Assembly: GCA_028875575.1 (NCBI GenBank)
Contig: JAPPDF010000002.1
Span: forward strand, 1 to 52,461
Origin: Acidobacteriota bacterium
GTDB lineage: Bacteria; Acidobacteriota; Terriglobia; Versatilivoradales; Versatilivoraceae
DNA length: 52,461 bases
Direction of reading: 5' to 3'
The notes beneath the pieces were generated by a model. That model was not told the origin of the DNA, searched no databases, and saw only the letters and a program-made list of their open reading frames with translations. The position numbers were made by a program, and so were the translations under genes. This document shows positions 43,413 to 46,690 of this stretch, piece after piece (the first letter of the stretch is position 1; each line of letters opens with the position of its first letter).

Positions 43413-44384
43413 CTATCGGTAGATCGCGGGGGGGCGGACCGAGCCGGATCCGGCTCGTCGGCGACGGGGACCGGAAAACGCAGCCAGGTGCACCACAACC
43501 TCATCCACCAGGAGAGCGCCGGCCACCAGGTGGTCGGCCACGCAGCCGAGGTCTCGGCCCAACCCCAAAGCCGGGCGGTCCTCGAAGGACGCCTTGAGGA
43601 TGCCGGCAAGGAAGGATCGGGCTTCCGCCGCCCGGCCCGACCTCTTTTGCGAGATTGGACGTTCGATGACGTCGACGGCATAGCTTCGAACGAGCCTGGG
43701 CAGCATCGAAGCGAAGGTTTCGGGTTGGTCGAACAGATCCAGGCCGAGTCGCTCCTTTCCGACCATGAAGACGGCACCGACTTGACCGGGAAGCGAATTG
43801 ACGGATTCGACGTATTGATCGAGCGTCGCGGCATGCCGTTCAAAGATCGAACTCATGGCTCTGCTGGGCGATGCCGCATCCATGGCGGCGGCTTTGGCCG
43901 CAATGGAGTGCCAGACCTGGGCCTGGTCGGACACCCTTTCACCGGTCTCAGCCAATGAATGGAGCACGCTGGCGAGCCTCTCAGTCCTGCCCCGCGCGTA
44001 CTGCAGCTGCTCGGTCACGACGAAATCGTCTCGCTCATAGTCCCAACGGCCCTCCTCCACGCACGACACGGGAATGACCACCGTGTGTTGCTCCGGGATG
44101 AGCATGGTGAGATTGGCAACGCGATTCTGCTTGGCCCCGACCAATTCTTCCCCGTCCAGGATCAGCACCGGCAGCTTCGATCGGTTCTCCACCGCAAGGT
44201 CAGGCACGCTTCCGGCTCGGGACACCTCTTTGACGGTGACCAAGCCTCCCCGCAGGCCGTCGGCCAGCATCAGGTATTGGAGGCTGCTGCGGACGTCCGA
44301 CAACAGCGGAAACATCGTCAGTCCCTTCCACGCCTGGGGATCTCCAAGTTTCAGGTTGGAGAGGGCGGCTTTCAGTGGATGCAT
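43413..44384 (-). CDS. ARPP-1-like domain protein (DUF6569 type)
   Basis: This 323-residue cytoplasmic protein contains the block KLPVLILDGEELVGAKQNRV (residues about 69-88) followed by HTVVIPVSCVEEGRW, which I recognise as the core of the ARPP-1 domain. That domain has been described by comparative genomics as associated with ADP-ribose-related conflict systems. The second half has helices (AAKAAAMDAAS, FERHAATLDQYV) and an RSYAVDVIERP strand. AAGGAG precedes the ATG at 44384. It is divergent from a MerR-type regulator across 109 bp that hold a strong promoter and repeats. The function is not experimentally known to me; the family name is from memory of the motif. Confidence 0.7.
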   Translation of the reverse strand: MHPLKAALSNLKLGDPQAWKGLTMFPLLSDVRSSLQYLMLADGLRGGLVTVKEVSRAGSVPDLAVENRSKLPVLILDGEELVGAKQNRVANLTMLIPEQHTVVIPVSCVEEGRWDYERDDFVVTEQLQYARGRTERLASVLHSLAETGERVSDQAQVWHSIAAKAAAMDAASPSRAMSSIFERHAATLDQYVESVNSLPGQVGAVFMVGKERLGLDLFDQPETFASMLPRLVRSYAVDVIERPISQKRSGRAAEARSFLAGILKASFEDRPALGLGRDLGCVADHLVAGALLVDEVVVHLAAFSGPRRRRAGSGSVRPPAIYR

Positions 44385-44414
44385 GGGCGACTCCTTGATA
44401 TGGTCAGCAAAAAT

Positions 44415-44463
44415 CAGTAAAGTGCATAATTATCGATGTAGAGGGGATTCTGTCAACAGTAAA
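44415..44463. promoter_or_regulatory. Promoter of the ARPP-1-like gene bracketed by direct repeats (candidate operator)
   Basis: On the minus strand TTGACA (44456-44451), an 18-bp spacer and TAATTA (44432-44427) form a near-consensus sigma70 promoter for the ARPP-1-like gene. CAGTAAA occurs at 44415-44421 and again at 44457-44463, just outside each box, with starts exactly 42 bp apart (about four helical turns). A downstream CAT is shared three bases after each copy. The divergent MerR-type protein is the obvious candidate binder. This fits a regulated promoter and is inferred from pattern. Confidence 0.5.
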
Positions 44464-44493
44464 CAACATTAATCACCATTAAAAACCACTTCT

Positions 44494-45324
44494 ATGGCTT
44501 TTGACCGGGAAACGGAAAGCTACACGGCCGCTGAACTGCAGCGGGAGACCGGGTTCGATCGCAGGACCATCGCCTACTACGTGCACGAAGGCCTGCTGCC
44601 CAAGGTGGGAAGGCGCGGGTCGCGAACCCGATACCCGAAGCTGGTCCGGGACCGCCTGCTCTTCATTCGACAGGTTCGGGAAGCGGAGCAGCGAGGGATT
44701 GTGGCGCCGGTGTCCCTCCGCGACATGCGCAAGATCTTCGAGCACACGCCGCCGGAGCTGATTTCCGGTGTCGCCGACGGGCGGATTCCCGTCAACCCGG
44801 AAGCCGTCTCCACCATATCTCCCAGCATCCGTCCACTAGCCCGGCGGCGGGAAGCCATCGAGGAACGTTGGGCGCCTGTGCGGAAAGACCGACCCAGCGC
44901 CGAGTTTCCCGGAAGATTGGCCGATTCACGCTTCCACGAGCCCGGCCCGGAAGAAAGCGAGGCGCCCGAGAGGCACTACTGGCGGGACAGCCACCCGGAG
45001 GAGAAAGGGAACCGCCGGGCCACGGACCAGGACGACCCGAACCTCGCGTACCAGCCGATACCGGTTGAAGATTCCGAACCAGGCCGGGAATCGGAGCTCG
45101 GCGAACTGCTGGCCGCACTACAGGACATCGCGGACCACCGCCGACAACCGTCGCCCGCAATGGACCGCTGGCTTCAAGTAGAGGTTTCTCCGGATATCAC
45201 GCTCTCGGTCCGGGGGGTGAACGACGAAGCAGCCGCCTTACTGGAGAGAGCGGTCCACCGCCTGCGCCGCCTCATGCGCGAACACGCGGAAGTGGGGATG
45301 GATGAGGAGGAAGATGAGTCGTGA
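44494..45324 (+). CDS. MerR-type transcriptional regulator with long acidic C-terminal region
   Basis: This 276-residue protein begins with a winged helix-turn-helix of the MerR kind: YTAAELQRETGFDRRTIAYYVHEGLLPK, then TRYPKLVRDRLLFIRQVREAEQRG (residues about 10-65). The middle (about 100-200) is charged and low in complexity, probably disordered. The C-terminal 50 residues (LQVEVSPDITLSVRG and a helix LLERAVHRLRRLMREH) form a small separate domain, followed by an acidic tail. It lacks the Cys of metal-sensing MerR proteins. No ribosome site precedes the ATG at 44494, so the message may be leaderless. It probably controls the divergent ARPP-1-like gene and itself. Confidence 0.8.
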   Translation: MAFDRETESYTAAELQRETGFDRRTIAYYVHEGLLPKVGRRGSRTRYPKLVRDRLLFIRQVREAEQRGIVAPVSLRDMRKIFEHTPPELISGVADGRIPVNPEAVSTISPSIRPLARRREAIEERWAPVRKDRPSAEFPGRLADSRFHEPGPEESEAPERHYWRDSHPEEKGNRRATDQDDPNLAYQPIPVEDSEPGRESELGELLAALQDIADHRRQPSPAMDRWLQVEVSPDITLSVRGVNDEAAALLERAVHRLRRLMREHAEVGMDEEEDES

Positions 45325-45523: not shown

Positions 45524-46690
45524 TCAGGAAGTCTCGGTTTCCTCGTTGAGGACGGAAAGATACCGGTCATAGACAAATAGGCGGTTCCGTCGTTTTCCGG
45601 TAATCTCCCGCGCGATCCCCTGAGTCGCGAGCAGTTCCATGGCTGAGGCAGTTGCCCGAAAGGAGAGCTTGGTCTCTCGGCACGCCGCAGGCAACGATAG
45701 AATAGGCCTCGCCTTGAGCGCGTCGTGTACACGCAGTGCCGACCCGGTCTTCCGCCCCCCTGACACTTGAATGCGGTTGCGGTCATCCTGGAACATGCGG
45801 GACAGACCCTGTGCACTGGAGACTGCACCCTCAGCCGTTCGCTTCACTCCTTCCAGGAAGAAGCCAAGCCAAGCCTCCCAGTCGCCTGTGCGGCGCACGT
45901 GGTTCAGCAAGTCGTAGTAGTCACCGCGGTGTTGCTTGAAATACAGGCTCAGATAGAGGAGCGGCTGGCTTAGCAAACCGGCTTGACACAGAAGTAGCGT
46001 TATGAGAAGCCGGCCAACGCGGCCGTTTCCGTCCAGGAAGGGGTGAATGGTCTCGAACTGCACGTGTGCAAGCCCCGCCCTTAGAAGTACGGGCACCCCA
46101 TCGTCGGTGGCGTGGAAAAAGCGTTCTAACGCCGTCATGCAATCGGGCACGACCGTGTGCGGCGGGGGCACGAAAGCAGCATGACCCGGCCGGTTGCCGC
46201 CGACCCAATTCTGCGAGCGGCGGAACTCACCGGGTGTTTGGGACTGTCCCCGCCCGCTCGACAACAACACACCGTGGATCTCGCGGATCAGGCGATTCGA
46301 CAGGGGGAAATTCTGCTCCAGGCGACGCAAACCATATCTGAGCGCCGCCACGTAGTTGGACACTTCGGTCACATCATCAAGCGGAATCCCGGGCACTTCC
46401 TCAAGCTCGAATAGCAGAAGATCCGACAGAGAGGACTGCGTGCCCTCGATCTGAGAGGAAAGCACCGCTTCCTTGCGCACATAGGCATACAGGAAGAGCG
46501 CGTGGTCCGGCAGCAAAGTCGAGACCGCGTCGAGGCGGCCCAAGGCAAGTACCGCCGATTCCAGAAGCTGTTGCAGCGAGCCGTCCAACATCAGAGCAGG
46601 TGTTGGGGGCAACGGCAGCGGCACAAATGCCCGAACCCGCTCACCGCCGACGATCGTCACTTCATAGCTGCCGCTTTCTCCGCGCCGCAT
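45524..46690 (-). CDS. Fic family protein (class II, self-inhibited) with C-terminal HTH-like part
   Basis: This 388-residue protein has the complete Fic motif HPFLDGNGRVGR (residues 216-227), which transfers AMP or another nucleotide part to a target hydroxyl. The inhibitory motif SSQIEG (S78-xxx-E82-G83) precedes the Fic core, which makes it a class II Fic protein held inactive by its own helix. A FVPPPH flap lies near residue 178. The C-terminal part from about 310 (LSLPAACRETKLSFRATASAMELLATQGIAREITGKRRNRLF) looks like a winged helix-turn-helix. AAGGA precedes the ATG. No antitoxin gene is adjacent. It is convergent with the MerR gene. Confidence 0.9.
   Translation of the reverse strand: MRRGESGSYEVTIVGGERVRAFVPLPLPPTPALMLDGSLQQLLESAVLALGRLDAVSTLLPDHALFLYAYVRKEAVLSSQIEGTQSSLSDLLLFELEEVPGIPLDDVTEVSNYVAALRYGLRRLEQNFPLSNRLIREIHGVLLSSGRGQSQTPGEFRRSQNWVGGNRPGHAAFVPPPHTVVPDCMTALERFFHATDDGVPVLLRAGLAHVQFETIHPFLDGNGRVGRLLITLLLCQAGLLSQPLLYLSLYFKQHRGDYYDLLNHVRRTGDWEAWLGFFLEGVKRTAEGAVSSAQGLSRMFQDDRNRIQVSGGRKTGSALRVHDALKARPILSLPAACRETKLSFRATASAMELLATQGIAREITGKRRNRLFVYDRYLSVLNEETETS

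Follow-up and report, generated by a model that had tools for sequence, protein, structure and literature searches.

A divergent ARPP-1 and MerR-like gene pair in Acidobacteriota with a putative operator of 10-bp direct repeats

How is the ARPP-1 (DUF6569) gene of an Acidobacteriota bacterium controlled, and what part does the MerR-like gene facing away from it play? The question arises from a window, the whole 52,461-nt stretch of contig JAPPDF010000002.1 that was analyzed, in which the two divergent genes are separated by 109 bp (Table 1). An earlier note, made from the letters of this window, had described divergent ARPP-1 and MerR-type genes around a promoter bracketed by identical repeats, and had suggested a stress or defence unit with the nearby Fic gene. 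The divergent arrangement was confirmed by profile matches to PF20208 and MerR_1. The gene pair, its promoter, the repeat array and the conservation and uniqueness of these parts are established at the level of sequence.

Table 1. Coordinates of the features of the ARPP-1/regulator locus within the window
Feature	Position	Strand	Basis or remark
ARPP-1 (DUF6569) gene, 323 aa	43413..44384	-	PF20208 E 1.1e-89; alignment; dN/dS
Ribosome-binding site AAGGAG of ARPP-1	44392..44397	-	read from sequence
Left array	44405..44431	+	R1 CAGCAAA 44405, R2 CAGTAAA 44415, R3 CATAATT 44425; period 10
-10 GATAAT	44434-44429	-	overlaps R3; TATAAT in 5/7 other species of the genus
Promoter spacer, 16 bp	44435..44450	.	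2/16 columns conserved in genus; no inverted repeat
-35 TTGACA	44456-44451	-	directly adjoins R4; 6/6 columns invariant, 8/8 genus species
Right array	44457..44493	+	R4 CAGTAAA 44457, R5 CATTAAT 44467, R6 CATTAAA 44477, R7 CACTTCT 44487; period 10
MerR-like regulator gene, 276 aa	44494..45324	+	PF13411 (MerR_1) E 4.6e-6; alignment; AlphaFold2 model; dN/dS
Fic gene	45524-46690	-	strong PADLOC SoFic match, 382.6 bits

The nearest named relative of the source genome is Candidatus Versatilivorator (L002; class Terriglobia), whose ARPP-1 is 96% identical. A genome scan found the divergent pair at 7 of 7 further loci of the genus, which comprises sponge-type Acidobacteriota, with identities to the window of 84–97% for ARPP-1 and 72–87% for the regulator. 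Within the class, full-length matches to the regulator were restricted to genus g1 and a second family, f3, represented by two genomes; both f3 copies adjoin ARPP-1 and are 55–57% identical. In a third family (f18; genome G596, from the phylum sample) the regulator is 37% identical, is again divergent to ARPP-1, and is the sole one among 41 genomes of the class of G596. The profile match to this third-family regulator (L159, G596:C1:1343637-1344389) reaches the C-terminus only across one in-frame TGA. Strong regulator matches were always beside ARPP-1 in the 396 phylum genomes, the 299 class genomes and the 41 further genomes. The earlier note had tied the idea of a compact regulated module to recurrence of this neighbourhood in other genomes; recurrence was found in three families, and all 11 loci keep the divergent pair together with its promoter and repeats, with the array partial in the third family. 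Judged on this conservation, the pair is a real, conserved and dedicated regulatory module with a well-defined putative direct-repeat operator.

Among the genomes sampled, only three Acidobacteriota families have the regulator, and it had no match among the plasmids or viral sequences searched. ARPP-1 is far more widespread, being found in 111 of the 299 sampled genomes of the class and in 80 of the 396 phylum genomes, so the regulator is a lineage-limited partner of a common gene. In a tree of ARPP-1 proteins those of families f1 and f3 form one clade (100/100), and the f18 protein lies nearby in an unresolved position. A general pairing of ARPP-1 with a MerR gene was rejected, as its neighbour elsewhere is a protein with sigma region 4, an XRE-M78 protein or a gene of unrelated kind. 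The same class includes family f9 (L109, L110, L114, L115, L116, L117 and L122), in which the gene upstream of and divergent to ARPP-1 encodes a sigma-70 region 4 protein, roughly 305–365 aa long in complete copies; the adjacent regulator is thus of another kind. In family f55 (L086, L089, L090, L096 and relatives) ARPP-1 lies downstream, on the same strand, of a gene whose product combines an XRE-type HTH with an IrrE/M78 peptidase domain. A TOTE conflict-system primase-like gene (L085:8103-11063) is divergent to ARPP-1 in a single genome of family f41.

The ARPP-1 product matches PF20208 with 301.1 bits (curated cut-off 27) across profile positions 2–297 of 297. Twelve residues are invariant over 69 homologues (E53, G78, G83, Q86, R88, C108, E110, R113, W114, Q154, W158 and G203). 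The invariant Cys, Glu, Arg, Gln and Trp residues suggest an active site, and the product is probably an enzyme. The predicted model is confident (pLDDT 93, pTM 0.90). Comparison of this model with the PDB by Foldseek (best E 2.3e-3, probability 0.12) and with VIA-align 2 (best Z 3.9 over 69 residues) gave no usable homologue, which is no proof of a new fold, and a viral structure library gave nothing under E 0.001. A profile search of PDB sequences gave no relative, hence no solved relative by sequence, and a literature search on ARPP-1/DUF6569 found no relevant paper in the library covered. The plasmid search yielded only three distant matches. On a Pimelobacter plasmid (L133:5998-8666) genes for DUF6569, a small ORF and an ADP-ribosylglycohydrolase lie in a row, followed by one for a RecB-like nuclease.

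The regulator carries a MerR-type winged HTH, its match to PF13411 scoring 27.1 bits against a cut-off of 21.6, and fold comparison of the N-terminal part returned MerR proteins as the nearest folds. There is no Cys in its 276 aa, which bears out the description of a MerR head without sensor cysteines. A PADLOC mad1 match extended over the HTH alone and was not counted as a sign of that defence system. The AlphaFold2 model is confident for the winged HTH (about residues 6–67), which is followed by short helices at 75–84 and 87–94, and confidence is low from about residue 109. Residues 109–199 form a disordered linker and residues 201–265 a conserved C-terminal segment, the fold of which is unresolved in the model. 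Within the genus dN/dS is 0.17 for the winged HTH region, 0.46 for the linker and 0.20 for the C-terminal segment. A fast linker between constrained winged HTH and C-terminal segments supports the separate C-terminal domain proposed from the sequence earlier; this part of the proposal stands by conservation, although the fold of the domain is not predicted with confidence.

The CAGTAAA copies reported on both sides of the promoter, 42 bp apart, are indeed present (R2 and R4). However, when the 109 bp were resampled under a Markov model, about 40% of the sequences contained some 7-bp direct repeat, so the CAGTAAA pair alone is not significant and is not used as evidence. Both copies are members of a larger array, overlooked in the earlier note, of seven direct repeats of the form NNNCA[G/T]TNNN with an exact 10-bp period, three over the -10 and start region and four upstream of the -35. 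The right array extends to the start codon of the regulator, and the start of R3 lies 32 bp from the start of R4, about three helical turns; across loci this phasing between arrays is 30 to 32 bp.

The array was evaluated at the 11 loci by counting CA[GTC][TC] units linked at period 10 against dinucleotide shuffles. Ten loci gave 3 to 5 links and the third-family locus (L046) gave 2, as against 0.04 to 0.10 in shuffles; p was 0.0005 (the floor) at 10 of the 11 loci and 0.006 at L046, for a motif that was first seen by eye in the same sequences, L024 and L026 included. Links at periods of 6 to 9 or 11 to 15 were almost absent, and on this count the array departs strongly from chance. A weaker, pattern-free test of lag-10 identity gave p < 0.05 at 8 of the 11 loci. 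The array is present in the eight species of the genus and in the second family, where the layout of three plus four units is kept despite diverged surroundings (one right-hand unit reads CAGG in L024), and is partly present in the third family, where only three right-hand units are kept. Conservation of the repeats among ARPP-1/MerR loci, another expectation that followed from the module idea, is seen in two families and partly in the third. Among 56 upstream regions of ARPP-1 genes lacking the regulator, none had more than one period-10 link. The four-unit right-hand pattern occurs a single time in its own 4.49-Mb genome, at this locus.

The near-consensus ARPP-1 promoter described previously was also verified, with TTGACA-16-GATAAT matching the consensus at 11 of 12 positions, while shuffles contained a mean of 0.1 promoter-like sites. 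The score is 12 of 12 in five other species of the genus, and the promoter is kept in all 11 species with spacers of 16 or 17 bp. Based on these features, the regulator is probably a dedicated autorepressor with a BldC- and CarH-like way of binding direct repeats, and not a classical MerR activator. Several copies of the regulator would bind head to tail on the seven repeats, one per helical turn and all on one face of the DNA. At the strong ARPP-1 promoter, occupancy of the left array would cover the -10 and the start region, and occupancy of the right array would cover the DNA upstream of the ARPP-1 -35 together with the regulator's own leader. With both arrays filled, RNA polymerase would be excluded from both genes. 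A signal sensed via the conserved C-terminal segment, joined by the disordered linker, would weaken the regulator's hold on the DNA, so that the near-consensus ARPP-1 promoter could fire. Binding, repression, the oligomeric form and the signal are steps that we infer.

A switch could be envisaged instead, in which regulator on the right array activates ARPP-1 by contact with RNA polymerase and the left array is used only at high levels of the regulator. Two separate arrays flanking the promoter about three turns apart would suit such a switch, but the promoter sequence is close to consensus as it stands, and its -10 and start region are overlapped by the left array, making activation an unlikely mode of control.

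The proposal that the pair serves in phage defence or in ADP-ribose conflict, like the plasmid cluster of ARPP-1 and ADP-ribosylglycohydrolase genes, concerns purpose and is compatible with the repressor mechanism. The family name, the TOTE-type primase gene divergent to ARPP-1 in L085, and the position of the Pimelobacter plasmid DUF6569 gene two genes from an ADP-ribosylglycohydrolase gene, with a RecB-like nuclease, all speak for it. The PF20208/DUF6569 protein of Pimelobacter simplex plasmid pA-N39 is about 30% identical to ARPP-1; however, it is encoded in a co-directional cluster with an ADP-ribosylglycohydrolase and a nuclease and with no MerR-like gene annotated, whereas a divergent MerR-like gene is found here. 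No glycohydrolase, nuclease or mobile gene lies beside the pair. The genome has a single ADP-ribosylglycohydrolase (PF03747) match, which is on another contig (C92) and not near the pair, and 5 of the 7 genus genomes have none. ARPP-1 itself is present with stable synteny in all 7 genus genomes at a median dN/dS of 0.11, and searches gave no match in phages and one partial match among viral contigs, all of which count against a conflict module. The Fic gene lies near the pair at most genus loci, up to about 2.8 kb away with varying intervening ORFs, and gave no match at the second- and third-family loci (L076, L078 and L088). The Fic and ADP-ribosylglycohydrolase genes are not conserved partners of the pair, and the stress or defence unit with Fic suggested earlier finds no support. 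Because no glycohydrolase is nearby and Fic is a neighbour in the genus only, a defence role of ARPP-1 is possible but not indicated by this locus, and we regard a conflict module as improbable.

In the classical mode of MerR regulators a dimer occupies the DNA separating the -35 from the -10 and untwists a spacer that is too long, activating the gene, here ARPP-1. The regulator shares the winged HTH (PF13411) of MerR, CueR and SoxR, and a feature of the promoter counts against an autorepressor: genus species carry an alternative -10 at 19-bp spacing, scoring 10 to 11 of 12, which would suit a classical activator. However, the 16-bp-spaced -10 is equal to or better than the 19-bp one in all genus species, with a tie in L007 only, and the f3 and f18 loci have 17-bp spacers only. 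Spacers of 16–17 bp are near optimal, so that untwisting would not be needed. MerR, CueR and SoxR bind a palindrome in a 19–20 bp spacer, whereas no dyad or other inverted repeat was found in the intergenic region here, and they have a long dimerisation helix and a metal or drug sensor, while the present regulator is devoid of Cys. The promoter spacer is the least conserved part of the control region: 27 of 30 columns of the left array region (44404-44433) are invariant in the eight genus species and 24 of 34 columns of the right array in the genus, against 2 of 16 in the spacer. Conserved arrays flanking an unconserved spacer show selection acting on the arrays rather than on the spacer, opposite to what a classical MerR operator would have, and classical activation seems quite improbable. 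Binding of the 10-bp repeats by some factor other than the neighbouring regulator, for which the AT-richness of the arrays might speak, is very improbable, as, among ARPP-1 loci, the array goes with the presence of the regulator, and the genome contains it only once, unlike the sites of a global regulator.

The proposed autorepressor has two documented counterparts. BldC of Streptomyces is a MerR-like protein that binds 9-bp direct repeats as head-to-tail multimers, excluding RNA polymerase by steric repression (PMC5859096), and CarH is a MerR-like protein that binds 11-bp direct repeats (PMC9304148). Likeness to BldC lies in the MerR-type winged HTH, in direct repeats that vary in number and are spaced by about one helical turn (tandem repeats of 10-bp period are found at all 11 loci, partially in L046), and in repression by coating of the promoter, which is here proposed from sequence. 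However, BldC is a global regulator of 68 residues that binds 9-bp units, AATTNNNN(C), while the present regulator has 276 aa with a conserved C-terminal segment and not a winged HTH alone, 10-bp units and a single site. CarH/CarA of Myxococcales and Thermus are repressors that share a MerR-type winged HTH with an extra C-terminal domain and tandem direct repeats overlapping the promoter, yet their repeats are 11-bp units (nnnnTnnACAn) and CarH has a cobalamin-binding domain, to which the regulator has no Pfam match. By analogy the regulator would work like BldC and CarH while being a member of neither, by size or C-terminal domain.

It is conceivable, and we put it forward tentatively, that these proteins constitute a new subclass of MerR-like repressors with 10-bp direct-repeat arrays, a BldC-like winged HTH, a new C-terminal sensor and one target, the ARPP-1 enzyme. 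If so, the releasing signal would reveal what ARPP-1 acts on. A 10-bp type of direct-repeat operator would join the 9-bp (BldC) and 11-bp (CarH) types and bear on the evolution of MerR-type winged HTH proteins from palindrome-bound dimers to filaments on repeats. ARPP-1 is common in Acidobacteriota, and a dedicated regulator with a defined putative operator offers a direct route to the signal that induces it.
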